Assembly (NCBI RefSeq): GCF_018390695.1
Contig: NZ_JAHBGF010000020.1
Span: forward strand, 248,001-312,000
Source of the DNA: Ancylobacter sonchi
GTDB taxonomy: Bacteria > Pseudomonadota > Alphaproteobacteria > Rhizobiales > Xanthobacteraceae
Reading direction: 5' to 3'
DNA: 64,000 nt
Made by a program: the position numbers and the translations under genes. Every line of letters starts with the position of its first letter. Positions within the stretch are counted from its first letter, which is position 1. The notes below the pieces were generated by a model. It did not search any database. It saw nothing but the letters and a program-made list of their open reading frames with translations, and was not told the DNA's origin. Shown piece by piece: positions 48,420-64,000 of this stretch.

Positions 48420-49823
48420 ATGGCGCCTCGCTTCACCATAGATCGCATCGATGCCTATGAGCGGATGATGCCCTTTGCCCATCCGTTCCGCTTCGGCGCG
48501 GTGGCGGTGGAGGCGGCGCCGCAGGCCTTTGCGCGCGTGACGATCGATCTGCCCGGCAGCGGGCGGGTCGAGGGCGTGGCGGCCGAGATGATGATGCCGA
48601 AATGGTTCGACAAGGACCCGGCCAAGTCGCCGGCCCGGACCATCGACGACCTGCGCGCCAGCCTCAAAGCCGCCGCCGAGGCCTTCACAGGGCACGGCGA
48701 CGCCGACACCGCCTTCGGCCACCATGCGATGGCGCTGGCCCGTCAGGGCCGGTGGGCGGATGAGCGCGGCATCGCCCGCCTCGCCGGCAATTTCGGCGTG
48801 GCGCTGGTCGACAAGGCGGTGCTGGACGCGCTCTTGAAGGGCCTCGGCGTCGGCCTCGCGGACGCGCTGCGCGGCAACGTTCCCGGCCTCGACGCCCGGC
48901 TGACGCCGGACCTCGATGCCGCCGAGATCGAGGATTTCCTCGCCGCCCTCGCGCCGGTGGATCAGGTCGCGCTGCGCCATACCGTCGGGCTCGCCGATGC
49001 CATCGAGGGCCCGGACAGCCTTGCCGAGACGATCGCCGCTTCGCCGCTCGCCTTCTTCAAGATCAAGATCGGCGGCGACGTCATCGGCGATCTCGAACGG
49101 CTGCGCGCCATCGCCGCGCTGCTGGACGCGCGGGTCCCGGCCTATCGCGCCAGCCTCGATGCCAACGAGCAATATGACCCGGCGCGCCTTGCTTTGCTCG
49201 CCGCGACGCTGCGCGACGACCCGGCGCTGGCACAGTTCCATAGCCGGCTTATCTATATCGAGCAGCCCTTCGACCGCCGCACCACCTTCCAGACGCCGCT
49301 CGACGCCGCCGCCATCGGCGTGCCCGTCATCATCGACGAGGCCGACGACAGCTACGACGCCTTCCCGCGCGCGGTGGCGCGCGGCTATCGCGGCGTGTCG
49401 TCGAAGTGCTGCAAGGGCCTCTACAAGGCGGTGCTCAACGCCGTCCGCGTCGCCCGGCTGAAGGCGAGGGGCGGTGGGGGCTACCTCATCACCGGCGAGG
49501 ATCTCACCTGTCAGGCCGGCCTCGGCGTGCAGCAGGACACCGCGCTGGTCGCCGCGCTCGGGCTGACCCATGTCGAGCGCAACGGCCATCACTATGTCGC
49601 CGGCTTCGGGCCGGCGCCGGATCATGAGGCGCAGGCCTTCGCCCGCGCTTTCCCCGAGCTTTACGAGGCCGGGCCGGACGGCCTGCGCCTCGCCACATGC
49701 ACCGCAACCCTGCCCGCTGCCCGGCTGCTCGCCGGGCCGGGCTTCGCCAGCGGCGCCGCGCCCGATTGGGACGCGCTGGCGCCTCTCACCCCGACATCCG
49801 CCTCACAGGAGATTTTCGCATGA
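48420..49823 (+). CDS. enolase-superfamily enzyme (mandelate racemase/muconate lactonizing-like)
   Basis: A 467-residue enolase-superfamily protein, longer than usual. It shows a paired-lysine K214-x-K216 (FFKIKIGGD), metal ligands Asp-247 (DANEQY), Glu-281 (IEQPF) and Asp-306/Glu-307 (IIDEADD), and a second-side Lys-329 in SSKCCKG. Such residues abstract a proton alpha to a carboxylate and support dehydration, racemisation or cycloisomerisation. In this operon, between an importer and a Gfo/Idh dehydrogenase, a sugar-acid dehydratase is a fair guess. The C-terminal 60 residues are family-atypical. Its stop overlaps the next gene (ATGA). Confidence 0.85.
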   Translation: MAPRFTIDRIDAYERMMPFAHPFRFGAVAVEAAPQAFARVTIDLPGSGRVEGVAAEMMMPKWFDKDPAKSPARTIDDLRASLKAAAEAFTGHGDADTAFGHHAMALARQGRWADERGIARLAGNFGVALVDKAVLDALLKGLGVGLADALRGNVPGLDARLTPDLDAAEIEDFLAALAPVDQVALRHTVGLADAIEGPDSLAETIAASPLAFFKIKIGGDVIGDLERLRAIAALLDARVPAYRASLDANEQYDPARLALLAATLRDDPALAQFHSRLIYIEQPFDRRTTFQTPLDAAAIGVPVIIDEADDSYDAFPRAVARGYRGVSSKCCKGLYKAVLNAVRVARLKARGGGGYLITGEDLTCQAGLGVQQDTALVAALGLTHVERNGHHYVAGFGPAPDHEAQAFARAFPELYEAGPDGLRLATCTATLPAARLLAGPGFASGAAPDWDALAPLTPTSASQEIFA

Positions 49824-51010
49824 GCGCGCACGCCAAACGCCTCGGTATCGTCATGAACGGCATCACTGGCCGCATGGGCATGAACCAGCACCTCATCCGC
49901 TCGGTGGTGGCGATCCGCGCGCAGGGCGGCGTGACCCTCTCCGACGGCTCGAAGGTGCAGCTCGACCCGATCCTCGTCGGCCGCAACGCCGAGAAGATCG
50001 AGGCGCTGGCCAAGCAATACGGCATCGAGCGCTGGACCACCGACCTCGACGCCGCGCTGGCCGATCCGCAGAACGAGATTTTCTTCGACGCTGCCACCAC
50101 CCAGATGCGCCCGGCGCTGCTGGAGAAGGCGATCCGCGCCGGCAAGCACGTCTATTGCGAGAAGCCGATCGCCACCAACCTCCCGGAGGCGGTGCGCATC
50201 TGCAAGCTGGCCGAGGAGGCCGGGGTGAAGAACGGCGCGGTGCAGGACAAACTGTTCCTGCCCGGCCTGCAGAAGCTGCAATTCCTGCGCGACTCGGGCT
50301 TCTTCGGCCGCATCCTCTCGGTGCGCGGCGAGTTCGGCTACTGGGTGTTCGAGGGCGACTGGGGCCAGCCGGCGCAGCGCCCCTCGTGGAACTACCGTAC
50401 GCAGGATGGCGGCGGCATGATCCTCGACATGGTCTGCCACTGGCGCTACGTGCTCGACAATTGCTTCGGCGAGGTGAAGTCGGTGTCCTGCCTCGGCACC
50501 ACCCACATCCCGAGCCGCGTCGACGAGAAGGGCAAGGCCTATGAGGCCACCGCCGACGACGCCGCCTATGCCACCTTCGAGCTGGAAGGCGGCGCCATCG
50601 CCCATATCAACATGTCCTGGGCGACCCGCGTCTATCGCGACGACCTCGTCACCTTCCAGGTCGACGGCACCCATGGCTCGGCGGTGGCCGGGCTGTCGGA
50701 CTGCGTGATGCAGCCGCGCACCGCCACGCCGCGCCCGGTGTGGAACCCCGACCAGAAGCAGACCATGGACTTCTATGCCGACTGGCAGAAGGTCCCGGAC
50801 AACGTCGTCTACGACAACGGCTTCAAGGTGCAGTGGGAGATGTTCGTCCGCCACATCGTGGAGGACGCGCCCTACAAATACACGCTGCGCGAGGGCGCCA
50901 AGGGCGTGCAGCTGGTCGAATGCGCGCTGCAGAGCTGGCGCGAGCGCCGCTGGATCGACGTGCCCAGCCTGGAAGAGTCCGAGCACGCCGTGCTCCGGGC
51001 CGCCGAGTGA
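49820..51010 (+). CDS. Gfo/Idh/MocA-family dehydrogenase
   Basis: A 396-residue NAD(P)-dependent oxidoreductase. The N-terminal Rossmann domain begins GIVMNGITGRMGMNQHLI, and the family EKP motif is at 114-116 (YCEKPIATN); the C-terminal alpha/beta domain has GGGMILDMVCHW with the substrate-binding Asp/His region. It likely oxidises a polyol or sugar. AGGAG lies before the ATG at 49820, which overlaps the previous stop. The following gene begins 19 bases downstream. Confidence 0.9.
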   Translation: MSAHAKRLGIVMNGITGRMGMNQHLIRSVVAIRAQGGVTLSDGSKVQLDPILVGRNAEKIEALAKQYGIERWTTDLDAALADPQNEIFFDAATTQMRPALLEKAIRAGKHVYCEKPIATNLPEAVRICKLAEEAGVKNGAVQDKLFLPGLQKLQFLRDSGFFGRILSVRGEFGYWVFEGDWGQPAQRPSWNYRTQDGGGMILDMVCHWRYVLDNCFGEVKSVSCLGTTHIPSRVDEKGKAYEATADDAAYATFELEGGAIAHINMSWATRVYRDDLVTFQVDGTHGSAVAGLSDCVMQPRTATPRPVWNPDQKQTMDFYADWQKVPDNVVYDNGFKVQWEMFVRHIVEDAPYKYTLREGAKGVQLVECALQSWRERRWIDVPSLEESEHAVLRAAE

Positions 51011-51029
51011 GCGGGCAGGGGATCACACG

Positions 51030-52226
51030 ATGAACTCCATCGACCGCACGCTCACCGCCCTCTCCATCACACTGCCGCTCGCCGGCGGCGGGGTGGAGAG
51101 CTTCCGCCTGTCAGTGCCGCGCGATTTCCCCGATCGCCCGGCCGGCCCGATGAACCGCGTCGCCTTCTCGGCCGGCCATGTGGTGGCCGACCCGCTCGCC
51201 GATGTCGATCCGTGGCTGACGGCGGCGGTGGACTGGGATCGCACCATCGCCTTCCGCGAGCATCTGTGGGACCTCGGCCTCGGCGTCGCCGAAGCCATGG
51301 ATACCGCCCAGCGCGGCATGGGGCTGGACTGGCCGACCTCGCTGGAGCTGATCCGCCGCTCGGTCGAGGCCTCCAGGGCGCGCACCGAGCCCAGCCTCGT
51401 CTCCTCCGGCGCCGGCACCGACCATCTCGCGCCGGAAAACGCCAAAAGCCTCGACGACGTCATCCGCGCCTATGAGGAGCAGGTCGCCGCGGTGGAAGGC
51501 GTCGGCGGGCGCATCATCCTGATGGCCTCGCGGGCGCTGGCCAAGGTCGCGACCTCGCCGGACGACTACATCCGCGTCTACGATCGCATCCTGTCGCAGG
51601 TGGCCGAGCCGGTGATCATCCACTGGCTGGGCGACATGTTCGATCCGGCGCTGGCCGGTTATTGGGGCAACCCTGATCCCGACCGCGCCATGGACACGGC
51701 GGTCGCGGTCATCAACGCCCATGCCGCCAAGGTCGACGGCGTGAAGATCTCGCTGCTCGACAAGGACAAGGAGATCGCCATGCGCCGGCGCCTAGCGCCC
51801 GGCGTACGCATGTATACCGGCGACGACTTCAACTATGCCGAACTGATCGCCGGCGATGAGCACGGCCATTCCGACGCGCTGCTCGGCATCTTCGACGCCA
51901 TCGCCCCGGCGGCCTCGGCGGCGCTGGTCGCCCTGGCGGCCGGCGACCGCGCGACCTTCGACGATATATTGGAGCCGACCGTGCCGCTGTCGCGGCACAT
52001 CTTCAAGGCGCCGACCCGCTTCTACAAGACCGGCGTGGTGTTCATGGCCTATCTCGCCGGCCATCAGGACCATTTCACCATGGTCGGCGGGCAGGAGAGC
52101 ACCCGCTCGACCCTGCACCTCGCCGAGCTGTTCCGCCTCGCCGACCGCGCCGGCCTGCTGGCCGACCCGGATCTGGCCGCGGCCCGCATGCGGGCCGTCC
52201 TCGCGGTGCGCGGCGTGGAGGCGTGA
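51030..52226 (+). CDS. DUF993 family (DHDPS-like aldolase) protein
   Basis: A 398-residue protein of DUF993, related to dihydrodipicolinate synthase-type TIM-barrel aldolases. The candidate Schiff-base lysine is Lys-239 in VDGVKIS, positioned like the DHDPS active-site Lys. An aldol cleavage or condensation on a keto-deoxy sugar acid is consistent, not proved. Conserved blocks VDWDRTIAFREHLWDLGLGVAEAMDTAQRG and PVIIHWLGDMFDP are visible. It is sandwiched between the Gfo/Idh and isomerase genes in one operon. Confidence 0.85.
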   Translation: MNSIDRTLTALSITLPLAGGGVESFRLSVPRDFPDRPAGPMNRVAFSAGHVVADPLADVDPWLTAAVDWDRTIAFREHLWDLGLGVAEAMDTAQRGMGLDWPTSLELIRRSVEASRARTEPSLVSSGAGTDHLAPENAKSLDDVIRAYEEQVAAVEGVGGRIILMASRALAKVATSPDDYIRVYDRILSQVAEPVIIHWLGDMFDPALAGYWGNPDPDRAMDTAVAVINAHAAKVDGVKISLLDKDKEIAMRRRLAPGVRMYTGDDFNYAELIAGDEHGHSDALLGIFDAIAPAASAALVALAAGDRATFDDILEPTVPLSRHIFKAPTRFYKTGVVFMAYLAGHQDHFTMVGGQESTRSTLHLAELFRLADRAGLLADPDLAAARMRAVLAVRGVEA

Positions 52227-52236
52227 GGGATCAGCC

Positions 52237-53139
52237 ATGGGCCAGCACACTTCCCCCACCGCCACCGCTCCGGTGCTGCGCGATTTCTCCGCCGATCACC
52301 GGCATCTCTCGATCAATACCGCGACGGTGCGCCGGCAGGGCGACCTGCTCGCCATCATCGAGGCCTGCGCCCGCGCCGAGATTCCCGCCATCTCGCCCTG
52401 GCGCGACCAGGTGGCGAGCGTCGGGCTCGACCGCGCGGTGCGGGCGGTGCGCGACACCGGGCTGAAGCTGTCCGGCTATTGCCGGGGCGGCATGTTCCCC
52501 GCCGACCCGGCCCGCCTGCCCGAGGTGCAGGACGACAACCGCCGCGCTGTCGACGAGGCGGCCGCCCTTGGCGCGCCCTGCCTGGTGCTGGTGGTGGGCG
52601 GCCTGCCGCAATTCTCCCGCCCCGGTTCGGCACCGTCGAAAGACATCGGCGGCGCCCGCGCCATGGTGGAGGACGGCATCGGCGCGCTCATGGACTATGC
52701 CGCCAAGGCCGGCATGAAGCTCGCCATCGAGCCGCTGCACCCGATGTACGCCGCCGACCGCGCCTGCGTGAACACCACCGGGCAGGCGCTCGATATCTGC
52801 GACCGGCTCGATCCGTCCCGCACCGGCCGGCTCGGGGTGGCGCTCGACCTGTTCCATGTCTGGTGGGACCCGGAGCTTTCCGCCCAGATCGTCCGCTGCG
52901 GCCGTGACCGGCTGCTCGCCTATCATGTCTGCGACTGGCTGGTGCCGATGGCCGACATGCTGAACGACCGCGGCATGATGGGAGACGGCGTCATCGATCT
53001 GAAGGGCATCCGCGCTCAGGTGGAGGCGGTCGGCTATGCCGGCTTCAGCGAGGTGGAGATCTTCTCCGAGCGCTGGTGGGGCCTGCCGATGGACGAGGTG
53101 CTGTCCACCTGTATCGCCCGTCATCGCGCCGTCGTATAG
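52237..53139 (+). CDS. sugar phosphate isomerase/epimerase (TIM barrel)
   Basis: A 300-residue AP endonuclease 2-type TIM-barrel protein. Putative metal ligands are the Glu in AIEPLHP, the Asp/His in GVALDLFHVWWD, and the late Glu in EVEIFSERWW. Members include IolE/IolI-type dehydratases and isomerases and hydroxypyruvate isomerases. It likely acts on a keto sugar or inositol-type intermediate. The ATG at 52237 is 10 bases after the DUF993 stop. Confidence 0.88.
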   Translation: MGQHTSPTATAPVLRDFSADHRHLSINTATVRRQGDLLAIIEACARAEIPAISPWRDQVASVGLDRAVRAVRDTGLKLSGYCRGGMFPADPARLPEVQDDNRRAVDEAAALGAPCLVLVVGGLPQFSRPGSAPSKDIGGARAMVEDGIGALMDYAAKAGMKLAIEPLHPMYAADRACVNTTGQALDICDRLDPSRTGRLGVALDLFHVWWDPELSAQIVRCGRDRLLAYHVCDWLVPMADMLNDRGMMGDGVIDLKGIRAQVEAVGYAGFSEVEIFSERWWGLPMDEVLSTCIARHRAVV

Positions 53140-53182
53140 GAAGGCCGGAGACCTTCCGGGCGGGAAAACGGGAGGCGGGGAC

Positions 53183-53869
53183 GTGAACGAGATGGCAGTC
53201 GGGAGCAAGCTTCGCCCCGCCGGGGACGGGACGGCGGACGCGCCGCGCGAGGTGCGCGCGCGCGATCCCGAGCGCACCCGCGCCAGCATCCTCGCCGCCG
53301 CGACGGTGGAGTTCTCCGCCCGTGGTTTCGCCGGCGCCGGCATCGATGCCATCGCCTCGCGCTCCGGCGCCAACCGGCGGATGATCTACCACTATTTCGG
53401 CTCCAAGCGCGGCCTGTGGCTGGCGGTGCTGGAAGCCGCCTATGAGCGCGCCCGCATGTCCGAGGTGGCGCTGCATCTCGACGAGCTGGCGCCGGAGGCG
53501 GCGATGCGGGCGCTGGTGACCTTCACCTTCGATTCCTTCATCGGCGACCGCACCTTCATCAACCTGCTGAACAGCGAGAACCTGCATCAGGCGCGGCACC
53601 TGAAGGAATCCGCGCGGGTGAAGGGGCTGCATTCGCCGCTGATCGGCCTCTTGCAGGGCATCCTCGATCGCGGCATCGCCGCCGGGGTGTTCCGCGCCGG
53701 GGTCGATCCGGCGCAGCTGTGGATCTCCATCGCCGGCCTGTCCTATTTCTACTTCTCCAACCAGTTCACCCTGTCGGTGATTCTCGACCGCAATCTGCAG
53801 AGCAAGGCCGAGCTCGACGAGCGCCGCGCCCATGTCGCCGACCTCATCGTCCACTCGCTGCTGGCCTGA
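53183..53869 (+). CDS. TetR/AcrR-family regulator
   Basis: A 228-residue TetR-type repressor. The helix-turn-helix is clear (ILAAATVEFSARGFAGAGIDAIASRSGANRRMIYHYFGSKRGLW), and the C-terminal ligand domain is helical. A GTG at 53183 with GGAGG seven bases upstream is the likely start; the next ATG (53192) is farther from it. It lies 43 bases after the isomerase gene in the same direction and probably controls the operon starting at 45568. Ligand unknown. Confidence 0.88.
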   Translation: MNEMAVGSKLRPAGDGTADAPREVRARDPERTRASILAAATVEFSARGFAGAGIDAIASRSGANRRMIYHYFGSKRGLWLAVLEAAYERARMSEVALHLDELAPEAAMRALVTFTFDSFIGDRTFINLLNSENLHQARHLKESARVKGLHSPLIGLLQGILDRGIAAGVFRAGVDPAQLWISIAGLSYFYFSNQFTLSVILDRNLQSKAELDERRAHVADLIVHSLLA

Positions 53870-54018
53870 TCACGCAAATCGCGCCGGAATCGGCCGCATC
53901 GGCCACCTCACCGGCCTGAGACACCGCCGCCAACGCGGCCTCTGGCGGGGCGCGCGCGAAGCCGGTATTGTCAGCCCTATATTATCTGGAATGTATGGGT
54001 TCTGTCGGAGGCATGCGC

Positions 54019-55401
54019 ATGGCGAAGAGCGGGGCGATCCTGCCGTGGCTGCGGCGCTTCTCCGAGGCGGCGGGGCCGCGTTATCTCCAGATCGTGGCGA
54101 TGATCGAGGAAGCGGTGCGTGCCGGCGGGCTGCGGCCGGGCGAGCGGCTGCCGCCGCAGCGCGATCTCGCCGCGCGCCTCGGCGTCGACCTCACCACGGT
54201 GACGCGCGCCTATAATGAGGCGCGCCACCGCGGCCTGGTCGATGCCGTCACCGGGCGCGGCTCCTTCGTTGCCGCCCGGCCGGAGGCGTCCGCCTTCCTG
54301 CTCGACCTGTCGATGAACATCCCGCCGCCGCCCAAGGGCGTGCGGCTCGCCGACAAGCTGCAGGACGGCCTGTCGGAGGTGCTGCGCCGCTCCGATGTCG
54401 ATCTGCTGATGAGCTATCACGTCGGCGCCGGTTCGCTGGCCGACCGCTCGGCCGGCTGCCTGTGGCTGCAACCGCTGCTCGGCGGCGTCGATCCGCAGCG
54501 GCTGATCGTGGCCCCCGGCGCCCAGTCGGCGCTGGCGGCATTGCTCGGCCTGCTGGCGCGGCCAGGCGAGGCGGTGGTGGCGGATCGGCTCACCTATCCC
54601 GGCCTGCGCACGGCGGCGCGGCAGCAGGGCCTGCGGTTGCAGGGGGTGGACGGCGATGCCGAAGGCATGCTGCCCGACGCGCTGGAGGCGGCGCTGGCCT
54701 CCAGCGGTGCCCGGCTGCTCTATCTCACGCCGACCATCCACAACCCGACTGCCGTCACCCTCTCGCCCGACCGCCGGGAGGCGATCGCCCGCATCGCGCG
54801 GCAGCGTGGCGTCGAGATCATCGAGGACGATCCCTATGGCCGTCTCGCCGGGGATGCGCCGCCGCCGCTCGCCGCGCTGGCGCCGGAGCGGACCTATTAC
54901 GTCGCCACCCTGTCGAAGACGCTGACGCCGGGCCTGCGCACCGCCTTCGTGGTGGCGCCGTCGGCGCGGCAGTGCGAGGCACTGGTGACGGCGCTGCGGG
55001 GGCTGATCCTTATGCCGTCGCCGCTGATGACGGCTCTGGCGGTGCACTGGATCCGTCTCGGCGTGGCGGAGGAACTGCTCGGCGGCATCCGCCGCGAGGC
55101 GGCGGAGCGTCAGCGTGCGGCGGCGGAGATCCTGCCGGTACCGGGGCGGGCGCATCCTCATGGTTTGCATGTCTGGCTGCCGCTGCCGCCGCACTGGGAT
55201 CGCCATCGCCTCATCGAGGCGGCGCGGCAGGAGGGGCTGGGCGTCACGCCGTCGGATGCCTTCTGCATCGAGGGACCGGCGCCCGACGCGGTGCGGTTGT
55301 CGCTGGGCGGCATCCCGGATCGGGCGCGGCTGCTGGCGGCGCTGCGCACCCTCGCCGGCATCCTGGCGGACCGGCACGTCGCCGATCCGATGATCGTCTA
55401 G
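54019..55401 (+). CDS. MocR-type PLP-dependent GntR regulator
   Basis: A 460-residue fusion of a GntR winged helix (PRYLQIVAMIEEAVRAGGLRPGERLPPQRDLAARLGVDLTTVTRAY) and an aminotransferase I-type domain. The PLP site is recognisable: ATLSKTLTPGLR with the Lys, and DDPYGRL with the Asp. MocR proteins use the aminotransferase domain as a sensor and control vitamin B6, GABA or taurine genes. The ATG at 54019 (seven bases after GGAGG) is better placed than ATG 54013. Next to it on the right is the dispersed repeat, then DUF983. Confidence 0.9.
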   Translation: MAKSGAILPWLRRFSEAAGPRYLQIVAMIEEAVRAGGLRPGERLPPQRDLAARLGVDLTTVTRAYNEARHRGLVDAVTGRGSFVAARPEASAFLLDLSMNIPPPPKGVRLADKLQDGLSEVLRRSDVDLLMSYHVGAGSLADRSAGCLWLQPLLGGVDPQRLIVAPGAQSALAALLGLLARPGEAVVADRLTYPGLRTAARQQGLRLQGVDGDAEGMLPDALEAALASSGARLLYLTPTIHNPTAVTLSPDRREAIARIARQRGVEIIEDDPYGRLAGDAPPPLAALAPERTYYVATLSKTLTPGLRTAFVVAPSARQCEALVTALRGLILMPSPLMTALAVHWIRLGVAEELLGGIRREAAERQRAAAEILPVPGRAHPHGLHVWLPLPPHWDRHRLIEAARQEGLGVTPSDAFCIEGPAPDAVRLSLGGIPDRARLLAALRTLAGILADRHVADPMIV

Positions 55402-56022: not shown

Positions 56023-57558
56023 CTAAGCTCTGCCGGCGAATCCCGCCGCGAAGGTCTCGGCGATGGCGAGGATCGCCGCATGCACCGGGCCGGAGGTGAT
56101 CGAAGGAATCACTGACGCATCAACGACATGGAGCCCCTCGAACCCCCGCAGCTTCAGCTCCGCGTCCACCACGCTCTCCGCATCCTTCCCCATGCGGCAG
56201 GTGCCGACCGGGTGGTGGTGGGTGATGACCGCGCGGGAGAGGAAATCGTCGATCTCCGCCTGGCTGCGGACGTTGATGCCCGGAAATATTTCCGTGTCTC
56301 TCCAATCGCTTAGCGCGTCGCTATGGCCGATCTCGCGCGCGAGTTCGAGCGCCCGCCGGGCGAGGCGGCGATCATGTTCGGTGGAGAGATAGGCAGGATC
56401 GATGCGCGGCGGCGCGTCGAGGTCGGGTCCGGTGACGGTGAGGCGGCCGCGGCTGGTCGGGTGGGTGACGCCGGAGAGGATGGTGTAGGCCGAGCCATAG
56501 GCCGGTGCGGCGAAGCTTTCCGAAACGCTGGGCGCCGCTACGCAGCCGAGCACCACGTCGGGCGGCCCGTCCGGCCGCGTCGGGTCTTCGGCATTGAGAT
56601 ACATGAGAGATTCGGAATGTTGCAGCCGCGACGGCGGTACCTCGCGGCGGGCGCGATAGACATTTCCGGCGGTCAGCAAATGGTCGTGCAGATTGCCGCC
56701 GACCTCCTTGCGGTCGGCGACGCAGGCGATGCCGGCGGCCTTCAGCTCCTCCGCCGGTCCGATCCCCGAACGCATCAGCAGCAGTGGAGAGGCGACGGTG
56801 CCGGCGCACAGGCAGATTCGTTCGGCGAAAAGCGGCTGCATCCGCCCGTCGATCTCGGCGAGCACCCCGGTCACCCGGTCGCCGTCGACGATCAGCCGGT
56901 GCACCCGGACGCCGGTCAGCAGTTCGAGATTGGGTCGATCGAGGACCGGCGTAAGATAGGCATCGGCGGCGCTGACCCGCTTGCCGTCGCGTATGGTGAG
57001 CGAGTTGGGCGCGACGCCGTTGAGCGGGCCGGCATTGTGGTCGCCGATGGCCGGCACGCCGCGCGCGAGGCCCGCCGCCATATAGGCGCGCACCACCGGG
57101 CTCACCTCCTCGCCGGGGAGGTAGACGGTGAGTGGCCCGTCGCCACCATGGGCCGCGCTTGCGCCGCCGGAAAAGCTCTCGCTGCGGCGGAAAGCCGGCA
57201 GCAGACCCTCATGGGACCAGCATGCATCGCCGGTCGCCTCCGCCCAGGCGGCGAAATCCGCCGCATGGCCGCGCACATGCGCCATGGCGTGCAGGCAGCT
57301 CGATCCGCCGACGATGCGCCCGCGCGGCCAGGGATGTACCCGTCCGGCGGTACCGGCCTGCGGCACGGTGCGATAGGCCCAGTCATAGGGACGGCCCTGA
57401 AGGCTCGGCCATTTCTGCGGAATGGCGATGTCGGGATCGCTCGGTGTCTCGCCGGCTTCGACGAGGCCGACCCTGAGGTCGGGGTTTTCCGACAGCCGGG
57501 CGGCGAGAACGCTGCCGGCCGAGCCGGCGCCGATGATCAGCACATCGAAGGACTTCAT
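56023..57558 (-). CDS. pno: pyridoxine 4-oxidase (GMC oxidoreductase)
   Basis: FAD-dependent oxidation of pyridoxine to pyridoxal, first step of B6 degradation pathway I. The 511-residue GMC protein has GAGSAGSVLAARLSE at the N-terminus and HHHPVGTCRMG near the end. The triad of the Mesorhizobium enzyme (His460, His462, Pro504, as I recall) maps to His-447, His-449 and Pro-491 here, with identical 2- and 42-residue spacings. The Pro replaces the usual Asn/His of GMC enzymes, which is diagnostic. The ATG at 57558 follows GGAGATGATGCG. It lies near the PPAT gene, which supports the call. Confidence 0.85.
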   Translation of the reverse strand: MKSFDVLIIGAGSAGSVLAARLSENPDLRVGLVEAGETPSDPDIAIPQKWPSLQGRPYDWAYRTVPQAGTAGRVHPWPRGRIVGGSSCLHAMAHVRGHAADFAAWAEATGDACWSHEGLLPAFRRSESFSGGASAAHGGDGPLTVYLPGEEVSPVVRAYMAAGLARGVPAIGDHNAGPLNGVAPNSLTIRDGKRVSAADAYLTPVLDRPNLELLTGVRVHRLIVDGDRVTGVLAEIDGRMQPLFAERICLCAGTVASPLLLMRSGIGPAEELKAAGIACVADRKEVGGNLHDHLLTAGNVYRARREVPPSRLQHSESLMYLNAEDPTRPDGPPDVVLGCVAAPSVSESFAAPAYGSAYTILSGVTHPTSRGRLTVTGPDLDAPPRIDPAYLSTEHDRRLARRALELAREIGHSDALSDWRDTEIFPGINVRSQAEIDDFLSRAVITHHHPVGTCRMGKDAESVVDAELKLRGFEGLHVVDASVIPSITSGPVHAAILAIAETFAAGFAGRA

Positions 57559-57652
57559 CGCATCATCTCCGCGAGGCATCAGGCAAGGGAAGGGTGGCTC
57601 CGCCGGCGAAGGCCGCGGAGGGGCAGGTGTCGGTCGGTGAGAATTGAGAGGG

Positions 57653-58390
57653 CTAGGGCAGTCCGCCGGGAGCAAGCCGTCCCATGATCTTCTGCTGCAG
57701 GGTGGCGAGGTGCTGCCACATGCCGCGCTCCGCCGCCTCGGGATCGCGGGCGGCGATGGCTTCGGCGATCTGCCGGTGCTCGGCGTCGCGCAGCTTCACG
57801 CGCTCGGGCAGCAGCGTGGCGTCGCTGTCGGTGAAGCGCAGCCGGCCGTCGCTGGCCACCCGGTGCAGCAGCACATAAAGCTCGGAGGCGAGGGCGTTGC
57901 GCGCGCCCGCCGCGATCGCCTTGTGGAACACCATGTCGGCGCCGATCGGGTCGGCATCCGGGTCGGTGGTCGCCGCGCGCAGGATACGGTCGATCTCCAC
58001 CGGGCTGGCGCGCAGCGCCGCGAGCCGCGCCAGCGCCGGCTCCAGCATCAGGCGCAGCTCCATCACCTCCAGCGGGTTGGTGGAGTTGATCAAACTGCGG
58101 CTGCTGTCGAGGCCGGAAGAGGTCGAGGCGCGGCGGCCAGCGCGGGCCGGCTCGAGCTCGCCGCGGGCGCGCAGCACGCCGAGTGCCCGGCGCAGCGTGT
58201 GGCGCTTGACATTGAGCTCCTCGGCGACGGCGCGTTCCGGCGGCATGCTGCCGGTGCGGGCGATGATGCCGCGGATCGAATCCACCAGTTCCTCGATCCC
58301 GCCCGGCTCGCGGCCTTCCGCGCCGGAGCGGCTCTGGGCTCCGGACGGCCTGCGCGTCTTGCGCCCGGTCTTGTCCGCTATCGCGTCCAT
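57653..58390 (-). CDS. GntR-family regulator with FCD domain
   Basis: A 245-residue regulator. The N-terminal winged helix (MPPERAVAEELNVKRHTLRRALGVLRARGELEPARAG) is followed by an all-helical FCD effector domain, with LRLMLEPALARLAA, VFHKAIAAGARN and DAEHRQIAEAI, including the His residues that commonly hold a metal or carboxylate ligand. It is placed between the pyridoxine oxidase gene and the divergent PPAT gene, and probably responds to a B6 compound or degradation product. Start at 58390. Confidence 0.88.
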   Translation of the reverse strand: MDAIADKTGRKTRRPSGAQSRSGAEGREPGGIEELVDSIRGIIARTGSMPPERAVAEELNVKRHTLRRALGVLRARGELEPARAGRRASTSSGLDSSRSLINSTNPLEVMELRLMLEPALARLAALRASPVEIDRILRAATTDPDADPIGADMVFHKAIAAGARNALASELYVLLHRVASDGRLRFTDSDATLLPERVKLRDAEHRQIAEAIAARDPEAAERGMWQHLATLQQKIMGRLAPGGLP

Positions 58391-58785
58391 CGAGGTTACA
58401 TCCGTTCTCGTGTGGGGGCCGCCGGCCGCGCATCGATCCGCTGATGGCGCGGCGATTGCCGATCCCGCCACCAAATGTACGAGCGGGACCGCCCAGTTAC
58501 AATATTGGTTGCCATCTGGTCGAGACCAAAACGTGCTGTCGCGGCAATCCTCCGTTGCGGGGCACTTGCTTCCCTATTGGAAGAGGCCCCCTGAAAAGCC
58601 CGAAAAACGTTGCGGAAATGCCGCCCGGTCGATCCTCCAGGCCCATGCGCAATCGCAGTTGCCCCGGAACGCGGCTGGTGCCAATGTTGAACCATTGTAG
58701 CGAATTCGGTCGAATTTTGGTTGGGCATCGTCTCCGCCGAACGACCGGATCGCCCGCGACCCCGCCAACGATCCAGAGCGAAGCC
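58391..58785. promoter_or_regulatory. divergent promoter region with candidate FCD-GntR operators, 395 bases
   Basis: It separates the GntR gene from PPAT. Two inverted repeats stand out: TGGTC-GA-GACCA (58517-58528), which resembles the E. coli FadR-type operator core (CTGGT...), and AATTCG-GT-CGAATT (58703-58716), about 70 bases before PPAT. No gene is seen inside. Confidence 0.45.
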
Positions 58786-59961
58786 ATGCGTTACGCCCCG
58801 TCCGATCTGCCGGTATTCACCTTGACCACCGGTCCCGTCGACGCCTACCCCGCCGTGCTGCGCGGCCTCGCCGCCACCGTGCTCTACGACTACGATCCCG
58901 CTTTCCAGGCGACGTATCAGCGGGTTGCCGAGAAGCTCGCCACCGTGGTGAAGGCCGAGACCATGCCGGTCGTCCTGCAGGGCGAGCCGGTGCTCGGGCT
59001 GGAGGCGGCGGCCGCCTCGCTGCTCGGGCGCGGCGACGTGCTGCTCAACCTGGTGTCCGGCGTCTACTCCAAGGGCTTCGCGGGCTGGGCGGCCCGCTCG
59101 GGGGCCGAGATCGTCGAGCTGGCGGTACCTTATGACCGCGTCATCGATCCCGCCGAGGTCGCCCGCGTGCTCGCCGAGCGCCCGGACATCACCGTCGTCG
59201 CGGCCTGCCACCACGATACACCGTCCGGCACCGTCAATCCGGTGGCCGAGATCGGCGCCGTCGTGCGGCGCCATGGCGCGCTGTTCCTGGTCGATGCAGT
59301 GTCGTCCTTCGGCGGCATGGCGGTCGATGCCGAATCGGCCGCCATCGACCTCCTCGTGACCGGCCCGAACAAGTGCCTCGGCTGCCCGCCCGGGCTGACC
59401 ATTCTCGGCGTGTCCAACGGTGCCTGGGCGAAGATGAAGGCCAATCCGCAGGCGCCGCGCGCGTCCATCCTGTCGATCCTCGACTGGGAGGAGGCCTGGC
59501 GCGCCGACCGGCCGTTCCCCTTCACCCCCTCGGTGGCGGAGATCAACGGGCTGGAGGCGGCAATCGACCTCTATCTCGCCGAAGGGCCGGAAAAGGTCTG
59601 GGCGCGCCATGCGCTCACCGCCCGCGCCTGCCGGGCCGGCATCGCCGCCATGGGGCTTCAGATCTGGCCAGCGGCGGAAGGTTTCGCCTCGCCGACCTGC
59701 ACCGCGGTGAAGACGCCGGACGGTATCGACGAGCCGCAGCTCAGGGCGGAGATCCGCGCCCGCTACGGCGTCGTCCTGTCTTCCGGACGCGGCGAGACGC
59801 TCGGCAAGCTGACCCGCATCGGCCATATGGGCCCGACCGCGCAGCCGCTGCATGCCGTCGTCGCGCTGACCGCGTTCGGCGGTGCGCTGAATGCCCTCGG
59901 CCACAAGGTGGATGTCGGGGCCGGCGTCGCGGCGGCGCTGGCCGCTATCGACGCCGGCTGA
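58786..59961 (+). CDS. pyridoxamine-pyruvate transaminase
   Basis: Converts pyridoxamine and pyruvate to pyridoxal and alanine in B6 degradation. The 391-residue protein matches Mesorhizobium loti PPAT closely as I remember it, including ILDWEEAW and SSGRGETLGKLTRIGHMGP. Key residues correspond with a constant offset of one: Lys-196 (TGPNKCLG; Lys197 there), Glu-67 (Glu68), Arg-335 and Arg-344 (Arg336, Arg345). This enzyme class binds its substrate where PLP would sit, so these residues are diagnostic. Cytosolic. Start ATG at 58786; the upstream frame is open but unrelated. Confidence 0.93.
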   Translation: MRYAPSDLPVFTLTTGPVDAYPAVLRGLAATVLYDYDPAFQATYQRVAEKLATVVKAETMPVVLQGEPVLGLEAAAASLLGRGDVLLNLVSGVYSKGFAGWAARSGAEIVELAVPYDRVIDPAEVARVLAERPDITVVAACHHDTPSGTVNPVAEIGAVVRRHGALFLVDAVSSFGGMAVDAESAAIDLLVTGPNKCLGCPPGLTILGVSNGAWAKMKANPQAPRASILSILDWEEAWRADRPFPFTPSVAEINGLEAAIDLYLAEGPEKVWARHALTARACRAGIAAMGLQIWPAAEGFASPTCTAVKTPDGIDEPQLRAEIRARYGVVLSSGRGETLGKLTRIGHMGPTAQPLHAVVALTAFGGALNALGHKVDVGAGVAAALAAIDAG

Positions 59962-59981
59962 GCAGGGCTTGCGGGGCGCCG

Positions 59982-60917
59982 TCATCGCGCGCCCCGCACA
60001 TAGTGCAGGCCGAGAGCCGGCGGCAGGCTGGCGCGGCGGCCGAACAGCACGAGCACCATCAGCACCGCCGCGAAGGGCAGCATCTGGATCACGTCGGTCG
60101 GGATGCTGACCCCGGCGACCTGCAGCGCGGTAGTGGCGGACAGGCAGGCACCGAACAAGAGCGCGCCGCAGAGCACCCACAGAGGGCGGCCGCGCGCCTG
60201 CATGGCCAGCACGATGCCGATGAAGCCGGCGCCATTGGTCATGAACGGCACGAAGATGCCGGCGCCGACCTGTGACATGAAGGCGCCGCCAATGCCGGCG
60301 AGGAAGCCGGTGGTCAGCACGGCGCAGGTCCGCACCCGCGCCACGTCGACGCCGGCCGCGTCGAGCGCCGCCGGCTTGTCGCCGGCCGCCTGCAACGAGA
60401 GGCCGAACTGGGTGGAGCGGAACACATAGGCCGTCACCGCCACCGCCAGCACCGCGAGATAGACGATGGGCGGGCGGTCGAACAGCGCCGGCCCGATCAC
60501 CGGGATCGCTGACAGGCCGGGAATGGCCAGCGTCGGCACCGCCGGCAGGCGGGGATAGCTCTGGGCGAACTGGAAATGGTGTAGCAGCGCGGTGAGCCCT
60601 TCGGCGCCAAGCGTCAGGGCGATGCCGATGACGATCTGGCTGAGCCCCATACGGATGCAGAACAGCGCCATCGGCGCCGCCACCAGCACGCCGCCGAGCC
60701 CGCCGCCGAGAAAGCCCAGCCACACCGAGCCGGTGGTGTAGGCAACGAGGAAGCCGAGATAGGCGCCGAACAGCATCATGCCCTCGATGCCGATATTCAG
60801 TACGCCGGCCTTCTCGGAGATCTGCTCGCCGAGCCCGGCCAGCATCAAAGGCAGGCCAGCGGTGAGAGCGCCGAGCACCAGCGAGGTGAGGAAGGCTTCA
60901 GTGAACAGCCCGGACAT
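59982..60917 (-). CDS. BMP-type ABC importer permease 2
   Basis: A 311-residue permease of the nucleoside/BMP class. It has about eight hydrophobic segments and the typical motif ISEKAGVLNIGIEGMMLFGA near the N-terminus, with GADGF-like wording replaced by a long LGLALGAEGLTALL stretch and the late DVIQMLPFAAVLMVLVLFG. It works with the following permease and the two-domain ATPase. It lies next to PPAT tail-to-tail (20 bases). B6-compound uptake is inferred from context. Confidence 0.88.
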   Translation of the reverse strand: MSGLFTEAFLTSLVLGALTAGLPLMLAGLGEQISEKAGVLNIGIEGMMLFGAYLGFLVAYTTGSVWLGFLGGGLGGVLVAAPMALFCIRMGLSQIVIGIALTLGAEGLTALLHHFQFAQSYPRLPAVPTLAIPGLSAIPVIGPALFDRPPIVYLAVLAVAVTAYVFRSTQFGLSLQAAGDKPAALDAAGVDVARVRTCAVLTTGFLAGIGGAFMSQVGAGIFVPFMTNGAGFIGIVLAMQARGRPLWVLCGALLFGACLSATTALQVAGVSIPTDVIQMLPFAAVLMVLVLFGRRASLPPALGLHYVRGAR

Positions 60918-60929
60918 GGTTGCCTCCGC

Positions 60930-62011
60930 TCACTTGCCGGCCGCGCGGCGGCGCTGGTCGAGATATTCGGTGATGCCGAGCATGATCAAAAGGATCGCCA
61001 CCACCACGAGGGTGAAGAAGTTCGGCACCCCGGTGCGCCGCGCCGCGCTCTCGCCGCCGATCGACAGCACCGAGAACAGGAACACGAAGGCGATGGAGGC
61101 GAAGCCGTTGAATCGCGCCAGGAACACCAGCGGCACCACGGTGAGGCTGTAGGCCGGGTTCCAGTCGGCGCGCACATTGCCCTGCACGCCCATGATCTCG
61201 ACCGCCCCGGCGAGCCCGGCCAGTGCCGCCGAGATGGCGAAGGTCGCCATGGTCAGCAGCGGCACGTTGAGCCCGGCATGGATGGCCGCGCGCGGATTGG
61301 CGCCGACGATCCTCAGCTTCAGGCCGAAGGAGGTGCGGGTCATCAGCAGGTGCACCGCGACGATGGCGACGAGGCCGATGATCAGCCCGCTCGACACGGT
61401 GGTGTCGAACAGGCGCGGCAGCCGGTCGGCGACGATCAGCGTGCGCGTCTGCGGCACGGTGGTGGCGGGATCGCGGAAGGCGAGCTTCACCAGCACATTG
61501 GCGAAGGAGACGCCGAGAAAGGTCATCATCAGCGTGGTGATGATCTCGTTGACGCCCTGATAGGCCTTCAGCAGCGCCGGCAGCAACGACCACACCGCCC
61601 CGACCATGGCCCCGACCGCGAGGCCGACCAGCAGCACCAGCCAGACCGGAAGATACGGCACCAGCAACGGGCCGAGCGCAGCGACGATCACCGCCGAGAG
61701 CAGGAACTGGCCGTCGCCGCCGAGATTCCAGATGCCGGCCCGGAAGGCGACGATCAGCCCCGCCGCGATCAGCAGCAGCGGTCCCATGCGGGTCAGCGTC
61801 GCCTGCAGGCCATAGGGGTTGATCAGCCCACGATCGACCACATAGCCGTAATAGGCGATGGGATCGACGCCGAGCGCCAGCAGGACGAGGCCGGACAGCA
61901 CGATGGCGCCGAGCACCGGGCCGAGCGCCATGGCGACGAGGCGGAGACGCTCGCGCCAGGCGCCGCTGCGCCGGGCGAGGAGGGCGTCGCCGCCGATCTG
62001 TGTGGTTTCGC

Positions 62012-62015
<4 letters not shown>
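60930..62015 (-). CDS. BMP-type ABC importer permease 1
   Basis: A 361-residue permease. The family motif VAFRAGIWNLGGDGQFLLSA is in the first third; then come PALLKAYQGVNEIITTLMM and RTSFGLKLRIVGANPRAAIHAG, which are characteristic of YufP-type subunits. About nine to ten hydrophobic segments. The ATG at 62015 overlaps the ATPase stop (ATGA). It pairs with the downstream permease (12-base gap) to form the channel. Confidence 0.9.
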
Positions 62016-63580
<1,565 letters not shown>

Positions 63581-63660
63581 GATCCGAACAGGGGACGGCC
63601 GCCGGCGCAGGCGCCAGACGCCGTCGGAACAGGAGGCGACGCTACGGCGTCGCCGGGCGT

Positions 63661-63690
63661 GTCGCGGGCACCGCTGGCGGCACCCGCGAC
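63661..63690 (-). other. intercistronic hairpin
   Basis: GTCGCGGG (63661-63668) pairs with CCCGCGAC (63683-63690) between the binding-protein stop and the ATPase gene. Such hairpins commonly protect the more abundant binding-protein message. No T-run follows, so it is unlikely to be a full terminator. Confidence 0.4.
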
Positions 63691-63700
63691 GATCCGGAGG

Positions 63701-64000
63701 TCACTGCGGCAGCTGCGACACCAGCTTGTGCACGCTGTCGGCGTCGTACTTCGCCGTCACCTTGATCTTGCCGTCGATGACATCCTTCTTCAGCGCCTCG
63801 ATCTGCGCCCAGACGTCATCGGGAATGTGCTTGGTCTTCAGCAGCTTGACCGAGCCGTCCTTGAGATTGATGTCGTAATTGCGCGAGCCGTAGCTGCCGG
63901 CCTTGAGGTCGGCGATCATCCCCGCATAGACCGGCTCCAGGTTCCACACCACCGAGGAGAGCAAATTGCCCTTGTCGATGGCGGTCTTGTCGCCGATCAC
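63701..64000 (-). CDS. BMP-family ABC importer solute-binding protein (C-terminal part, cut by window edge)
   Basis: The visible 99 C-terminal residues have the end of a BMP-type basic membrane lipoprotein: VVWNLEPVYAGMIADLKAG, then SRNYDINLKDGSVKLL and PDDVWAQIEALKKDVIDGKI. The N-terminus with signal peptide lies beyond the window. It is the solute-capturing subunit for the three downstream genes. Known relatives bind nucleosides; with PPAT and pyridoxine oxidase beside it, a B6 vitamer is a plausible ligand. Confidence 0.85.
   Translation of the reverse strand: MIGDKTAIDKGNLLSSVVWNLEPVYAGMIADLKAGSYGSRNYDINLKDGSVKLLKTKHIPDDVWAQIEALKKDVIDGKIKVTAKYDADSVHKLVSQLPQ

Follow-up and report, generated by a model that had tools for sequence, protein, structure and literature searches.

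A probable vitamin B6 utilisation cluster of Ancylobacter sonchi with a candidate third route of ring opening

Two routes of bacterial vitamin B6 breakdown are described in the accessible text of PMC3538738. In pathway I, known from Pseudomonas MA-1 and Mesorhizobium loti, an importer, pyridoxine 4-oxidase and pyridoxamine-pyruvate aminotransferase (PPAT) form the entry that leads to pyridoxal. The second pathway, known from Pseudomonas IA and Arthrobacter Cr-7, starts with oxidation at C5, and a single flavin oxygenase opens the ring. We analysed a stretch of 64,000 nucleotides from Ancylobacter sonchi (the window; G000:C13:248001-312000), which lies in a 5.8 Mb assembly of 47 contigs with an estimated completeness of 99.99%. 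Its end and the adjoining sequence hold a locus with the same entry as pathway I, including an importer of the same family. The lower part differs: an HpaB-type oxygenase, a NicX-like dioxygenase and two amidases replace the lactonase, dehydrogenases, decarboxylase, ring-opening oxygenase MHPCO and AAMS hydrolase of pathway I, whose whole set is clustered with the importer in the genomes G248 and G286.

A second point of comparison is the nicotinate branch of Pseudomonas putida, in which NicX action is followed by two hydrolysis steps. The lower part proposed here would resemble it in the 2,5-dihydroxypyridine core, in cleavage by an iron enzyme of the NicX family with the metal ligands kept, and in the two hydrolyses. 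It differs in that H105 and E177 of NicX are F and Q, the hydroxylase is of HpaB type, both hydrolases carry the amidase signature and the genes are linked to those of vitamin B6. With regard to uptake, the riboflavin importer RfuABCD is likewise an importer with a BMP-related binding protein serving a vitamin, although a different one. Three prokaryotic B6 importers are listed as characterised in the accessible text of PMC9997740, i.e. P5PA and the ECF importers PdxU2/HmpT and PdxU; they belong to other transporter classes and none is of the BMP type found here.

Taking uptake, pyridoxal formation and the proposed lower steps together, the locus probably serves vitamin B6 utilisation and opens the ring by a route unlike the two described ones, and the neighbouring gene set cut off by the end of the window is a candidate third B6 pathway. 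Among the open-access papers listed by our searches we found no NicX- or HpaB-type B6 route; subscription papers may hold one.

Linkage of an HpaB- and NicX-type gene set to vitamin B6 genes

The sequence taken for analysis extended 31 kb past the window end. Genes beyond position 64000 are given in extended window coordinates, which equal the position in locus L005 plus 54999 (Table 1). A gene set headed by the HpaB-type oxygenase starts there, divergent from the importer's binding protein gene. The oxygenase scores above the Pfam cut-offs for HpaB_N (197.2 against 35) and HpaB (138.5 against 25) and misses the NCBIfam equivalog cut-off for 4-hydroxyphenylacetate 3-monooxygenase (226.7 against 480.2); its nearest solved enzymes are 4-nitrophenol and chlorophenol monooxygenases. 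The NTF2-like protein has the fold of SnoaL, TerC and limonene epoxide hydrolase, and the PcaC-type decarboxylase barely passes its model (157.3 against 155.7).

The NicX-like protein matches 2,5-dihydroxypyridine 5,6-dioxygenase (PDB 7cn3) with an E-value of 6e-119, all other PDB matches being 0.6 or worse. Since the alignment is gapless until near the end, the residue numbers of NicX can be transferred. The iron ligands H265, S302, H318 and D320 are kept, as are R293, H189 and E308. By contrast, each of the 15 distinct NicX-like proteins of the clusters (19 rows) has V, F, L and Q in place of C76, H105, V175 and E177, and so have three proteins from Rhizobiaceae plasmids, except that one of these has I76; two paralogues with 45-46% identity keep E177. 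In NicX, E177 contacts the ring nitrogen and the hydroxyl group, the H105F variant stays active and the product is N-formylmaleamate, according to the accessible text of PMC7910607. Because of the changed contacts (F105, Q177) we describe the protein as NicX-like in action and do not file it as NicX; judged from these residues, we read it as having kept the chemistry with a changed substrate. Nicotinate degradation was considered as a role and rejected: the substrate contacts differ and the gene stays with those of PPAT and the oxidase.

We assessed the linkage of these genes in 397 genomes drawn from the order, in the best 80 of 164 PPAT relatives with their loci, and in 72,556 plasmids. The genome and locus samples overlap (G155 is L014 and G266 is L012, on the same contigs). 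Thresholds in the genome sample were E <= 1e-80 for the binding protein, E <= 1e-100 for PPAT and E <= 1e-150 for the HpaB gene. An HpaB orthologue was detected in eight of the 397 genomes, that of A. sonchi included, and in a class-wide draw in A. sonchi only (1/367). In all eight, within the 25-40 kb fetched, it clusters with the genes for the oxidase, the regulator FCD1, PPAT, the four importer subunits, the NTF2-like protein, both amidases and the NicX-like protein. Seven of the eight clusters also contain the flavin reductase (not found in G087), and seven contain the group from PcaC to the hydroxyisobutyrate-dehydrogenase-like protein (HIBADH; group not in G341).

Gene order differs in G087, in an Enterobacterales metagenome-assembled genome (L132, behind L079) and on three Rhizobiaceae plasmids. 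The Enterobacterales locus has the same core, and the PcaC-to-HIBADH group was not present in the 20 kb fetched. The plasmids carry the importer, the small secreted protein SEC, PPAT, the oxidase and the HpaB set, arranged differently again. In addition they encode a lactonase-like protein of the metallo-beta-lactamase type (26% to 4-pyridoxolactonase), short-chain dehydrogenases/reductases (SDRs; 27-31% to pyridoxal dehydrogenase) and a PcaC-type protein (62%; all figures for L142). Across the plasmid sample the binding protein occurs on five plasmids, each with the HpaB set, and PPAT on four, three of them with the HpaB set and the fourth from Haematobacter.

The HpaB gene and the lactonase of pathway I exclude each other in both samples. 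Ten of the 397 genomes hold the lactonase and eight the HpaB gene, with an overlap of zero; these 18 genomes and G045 make up the 19 in which the binding protein was found. The same picture emerges for the 80 PPAT loci: 63 have the lactonase, nine the HpaB gene, none both, and none has the importer with neither. Here a locus counts as having the importer when one subunit or more reaches 50% identity, and as having the lactonase or HpaB when the match reaches 60%. Both kinds exist within one genus (g111), G286 having the pathway I set and G341 the HpaB set.

Predicted pyridoxal formation and uptake, and the putatively secreted protein SEC

Among solved structures, the closest relative of the GMC protein is pyridoxine 4-oxidase of M. 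loti (4ha6/3t37, E 4e-189; next PDB match 1.5e-86), and it holds H447, H449 and P491, i.e. the His-x-His plus Pro pattern. For PPAT the closest solved structure is 2z9u, that of the M. loti enzyme (E 8e-173, against 2e-39 for the next protein). The two share 257 of 390 residues (65.9%), and our PPAT passes NCBIfam NF046070 with 636 bits against a cut-off of 600. E67, K196, R335 and R344 are present at positions equal to those in the M. loti chain, and the protein is 98% identical to one from Ancylobacter sp. Lp-2 (L007). FCD1 scores 72.3 for Pfam FCD (cut-off 24.3), is divergent from PPAT and adjoins it in all eight genomes with the HpaB gene. A sequence-only reading of the window had named both enzymes and described the divergent regulator as well as an ABC importer directly behind PPAT, and in all of this it was right: two permeases, an ATPase and the binding protein follow, all on the minus strand.

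The same reading had regarded the importer as unassigned, which was mistaken. NCBIfam release 20.0 already carries four models, NF047927-NF047930, named 'putative B6 ABC transporter', and the four subunits exceed all of their cut-offs (Table 1). Among solved structures the importer is related most closely to BMP proteins, which are distant (best E 4e-16). Of the 80 PPAT loci, 70 contain one importer subunit or more and the other ten contain none. The binding protein was found in 19 of the 397 genomes, all of which also hold PPAT; PPAT itself occurs in 24, five of them without the binding protein. Co-occurrence with PPAT across genomes had been put forward as a check on the idea of a B6 catabolic locus with its own importer, and its outcome favours B6. 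These data support the importer as a predicted uptake system for B6 vitamers, an assignment which is already in NCBIfam and not new; no sequence difference separates our importer from the NCBIfam family, to which we add the partner SEC. Among the open-access papers listed by our searches, none could be tied to the NF047927-NF047930 importer. The linkage sharpens the case for a B6 importer of the BMP type, a class absent from the three characterised ones as given in the accessible text of PMC9997740.

SEC is encoded divergently from the binding protein gene at a distance of 86-239 bp in all 66 loci (of 80) that have that gene. It is found in loci of both pathway types, beside the importer of G045 and on plasmids. 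In searches of Pfam and NCBIfam with four SEC proteins nothing scored above cut-off; one had a sub-threshold match to ankyrin. Among 27 aligned proteins C51, H57, W58, C102, C132 and C143 are invariant. The predicted structure (mean pLDDT 92.8) is all beta except for an N-terminal helix, and no fold in the PDB matched the model at E 0.001. SEC looks like a periplasmic helper of the importer.

Some PPAT relatives have other transporters nearby. By eye, a peptide-type ABC transporter accompanies the PPAT relative in three loci without the B6 importer (L045, L128, L130). In a further locus (L129, G136) the neighbours of PPAT are a short reading frame that partially matches the lactonase, at 96% identity, and a BMP-type importer of another kind, whose permeases and ATPase are 33-37% identical.

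A proposed route and its alternatives

Both divergent promoter regions of the cluster, that between FCD1 and PPAT and that between the binding protein and HpaB genes (BMP/HpaB), are rich in the hexamer TGGTTG. With both strands counted, the FCD1/PPAT regions of 15 loci contain 34 copies, against a mean of 3.2 and a maximum of 8 in 200 shuffles. The BMP/HpaB regions of 15 loci contain 56, against a mean of 7.0 and a maximum of 13. In nine loci the two regions have 4.25 copies per kb, compared to 0.26 for the remainder of these loci and 0.25 for other gaps; this count left out the FCD1/PPAT region of G341, which spans the PPAT gene there. By presence, TGGTTG is the top hexamer of the FCD1/PPAT region (15/15), and it also reaches 15/15 in the BMP/HpaB region, as do several others. 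Of the 15 loci, seven are closely related to one another (the A. sonchi genome and six Ancylobacter loci). One regulator, probably FCD1, would act at the PPAT/FCD1 and HpaB promoters.

We propose the following sequence of steps. The BMP-type ABC importer, placed in its family by homology, would take up B6 vitamers with SEC as a small secreted partner. By strong homology, the oxidase would turn pyridoxine and PPAT pyridoxamine into pyridoxal. A gap follows, in which the C4 side chain of pyridoxal may become a lactone or acid through an enzyme encoded elsewhere. The HpaB-type oxygenase and the flavin reductase would then hydroxylate C6, para to the 3-hydroxyl, yielding a 2,5-dihydroxypyridine core. 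Its family and its iron site, recognised by homology, suggest that the NicX-like dioxygenase would cleave between C2 and C3. By analogy with NicX, whose product is N-formylmaleamate, this cut would yield an N-acetyl amide, as vitamin B6 carries a methyl group where the NicX substrate has hydrogen. Such a product has two amide bonds, which would fit with the two amidases freeing acetate and ammonia. Finally, where the genes are present, the PcaC-type decarboxylase, a lactonase (PcaD-like here, of the metallo-beta-lactamase type on the Rhizobium plasmids) and the crotonase-like and hydroxyisobutyrate-dehydrogenase-like proteins may lead the hydroxymethyl acid to central metabolism.

In its full form, with a 6-hydroxylated derivative (perhaps as 4-pyridoxolactone), a C2-C3 cut by a NicX-family enzyme of new specificity, two amidases, opening of the lactone after ring cleavage and SEC aiding the importer, this third B6 route is a scheme towards which we lean with some reserve. 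Late opening of the lactone would explain that no 4-pyridoxolactonase was found and yet a PcaC/PcaD-like pair is present, with another lactonase-like protein in the place of PcaD on the Rhizobium plasmids. If true, a third route would mean a different ring-opening chemistry and a new substrate class for the NicX family, would provide functions for HpaB-type genes now annotated as 4-hydroxyphenylacetate hydroxylase, and would place two alternative lower pathways behind one importer.

Several observations weigh against this route. We infer the substrates of all lower-pathway enzymes by analogy, and the cluster is without a pyridoxal dehydrogenase. A tree of the concatenated importer subunits (50 rows; every second L-numbered lactonase locus and rows lacking a full subunit were left out) parts the HpaB and lactonase types with two changes, some rows being on long branches. 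The counts given above thus reflect a small number of independent events, and the lower pathway goes together with the importer. TGGTTG was chosen after the regions had been inspected, no perfect 5-base dyads common to both promoter regions were found, and the BMP/HpaB region contains the SEC gene. In G045, one of the 19 genomes, the importer has rut (uracil) genes close by, and PPAT is about 250 kb away. Furthermore, some HpaB sets with two amidases have no PPAT in their vicinity. Those of Terrarubrum and Neorhizobium are accompanied by another transporter and have no oxidase nearby either; those of Thioclava are accompanied by the importer. One of these sets (L152) was detected only as partial matches, and another (L148) includes a stretch that matches the oxidase at 62% identity across 28% of its length. 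Of the five plasmids on which the binding protein was found, the two from Thioclava have no PPAT above the threshold applied; in the one tested, the binding protein passes NF047927 (417.1 against 400). The NicX-like proteins of the Terrarubrum, Neorhizobium and Thioclava sets have an identity of only 37-41% and, where readable, L293 and M175.

It follows from the sets without PPAT that the lower set could serve another 3-hydroxypyridine. According to this explanation the HpaB, NicX-like and amidase genes degrade a compound such as imported 4-pyridoxate or a plant or soil pyridine, and common lower reactions or a common regulator account for the B6 neighbours. Of the alternatives it survives best, and we consider it unlikely. 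The set stays with PPAT and the oxidase in 8/8 genomes of the order and on the three Rhizobiaceae plasmids despite changes in gene order, the NicX-like contacts are uniform in the PPAT-linked group, and TGGTTG is shared. In addition, our searches of the A. sonchi genome found no other B6 ring-opening enzyme.

It is very unlikely that the importer serves nucleosides or nucleobases instead of B6. The BMP class as such points in this direction, and so do the neighbours of the G045 importer, which include RutA (698.6 bits, cut-off 498.3), RutD (352.2, cut-off 238.5) and a rutF-like gene (L124). Yet in G045 a gene of 740 residues separates importer and rut genes, so that they do not form one operon. 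The finding named beforehand as speaking against B6, an importer next to nucleoside catabolic genes without PPAT in most relatives, did not arise: all 19 genomes with the binding protein hold PPAT, and one of them (G045) has the importer near rut. The association with PPAT in loci and genomes, the HpaB set on all five plasmids with the binding protein and the NCBIfam assignment all favour B6.

That pathway I is in use, with its lactonase, dehydrogenase and MHPCO diverged or replaced elsewhere in the genome, we regard as highly improbable. Reference proteins for the lactonase (3aj3, E 8e-182) and pyridoxal dehydrogenase (3ndr, E 2e-151) were taken from L071 (Mesorhizobium). MHPCO and the other later genes were taken from G248 by position and the look of their sequences, and their names are putative ones given by gene order. 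In the whole assembly, generic homologues exist: the best match to pyridoxal 4-dehydrogenase has 42% identity among 65 SDR matches, that to MHPCO 36%, and that to 4-pyridoxolactonase 31% over residues 72-203. True orthologues are much closer, with 69-99% for pyridoxal dehydrogenase across genera and 86% for MHPCO in G286; where pathway I genes are present they cluster with the importer, and no locus has both sets. Within the 40 kb fetched nothing matched AAMS hydrolase, HMPD decarboxylase or FHMPC dehydrogenase, and the sole match to 4-pyridoxate dehydrogenase was the oxidase (38%); no genome-wide search was made for these four. The sequence-only reading had seen neither pyridoxal dehydrogenase nor lactonase in the window, which holds for the whole assembly as well. 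It had also proposed looking for them past 64000 and genome-wide: no close match to either turned up, and the HpaB/NicX-type set was found instead. The idea that pathway I is hidden past 64000 was rejected, as the searches for lactonase, MHPCO and dehydrogenase found no close match.

Least probable of all is that the cluster represents the described second pathway via the 5-position. In its favour, the end product of that route is 2-(hydroxymethyl)-4-oxobutanoate (PMC3538738, accessible text), and a hydroxymethyl acid is also what our scheme predicts. Against it stands the gene content of the cluster, with a 4-oxidase, PPAT, an HpaB-type oxygenase of two components and, apart from it, a NicX-like dioxygenase.

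Gene coordinates and neighbouring or related gene sets

Table 1. Features of the predicted vitamin B6 cluster (positions above 64000 are extended window coordinates)
Feature	Position	Strand	Basis or remark
Pyridoxine 4-oxidase (GMC, 511 aa)	56023..57558	-	closest PDB relative and residues
FCD1, GntR-family regulator of the FCD class	57653..58390	-	Pfam FCD
TGGTTG, candidate operator half-site	58506..58511	+	hexamer enrichment
TGGTTG, candidate operator half-site	58718..58723	+	hexamer enrichment
PPAT (391 aa)	58786..59961	+	PDB relative, NF046070, residues
Predicted B6 importer, permease 1	59982..60917	-	NF047928, 531.1 bits, cut-off 465
Predicted B6 importer, permease 2	60930..62015	-	NF047929, 544.9 bits, cut-off 400
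Predicted B6 importer, ATPase	62012..63580	-	NF047930, 764.4 bits, cut-off 670
BMP-type binding protein	63701..64726 (L005:8702-9727); last 300 bases, 63701-64000, in window	-	NF047927, 483.8 bits, cut-off 400
SEC, small protein with signal-like start	64821-65270 (L005:9822-10271)	+	divergent from binding protein
TGGTTG/CAACCA sites, BMP/HpaB region	65351, 65417, 65612		
HpaB-type oxygenase	65749-67245	+	Pfam HpaB_N, HpaB
NTF2-like protein	67307-67759	+	family search
Amidase 1	67756-69219	+	amidase signature
Amidase 2	69231-70520	+	amidase signature
Flavin reductase	70517-71068	+	family search
NicX-like dioxygenase	71119-72162	+	PDB match NicX
PcaC-type decarboxylase	72209-72607	-	TIGR02425
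FCD2 regulator	72604-73335	-	second FCD regulator
PcaD-like hydrolase	73336-74109	-	below family cut-off
Crotonase-like protein	74256-74963	+	family search
Hydroxyisobutyrate-dehydrogenase-like protein (HIBADH)	74986-75900	+	named by eye

Sets of HpaB-type, NicX-like and amidase or isochorismatase genes with PPAT not nearby were noticed in eight loci (L143, L144, L145, L147, L148, L151, L152 and L153), with other transporters or AbrB-like membrane proteins alongside. In Peribacillus the HpaB-type and NicX-like genes lie with isochorismatase-type proteins. The NicX-like proteins of the Terrarubrum, Neorhizobium, Thioclava and Peribacillus sets are 37-44% identical. The sets of the eight loci are perhaps a wider family of pyridine-opening clusters.

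Near the oxidase, a MocR-type regulator is encoded at 53968-55401. It misses the models for both EhuR (391.5, cut-off 480) and PdxR (185.7, cut-off 320), and G085 has a 45% match to it near the oxidase. Further along, genes for a Gfo/Idh-type oxidoreductase, a DUF993-like protein, a sugar isomerase-like protein and a TetR-type regulator, named by eye, lie in a row at 49697-53869.

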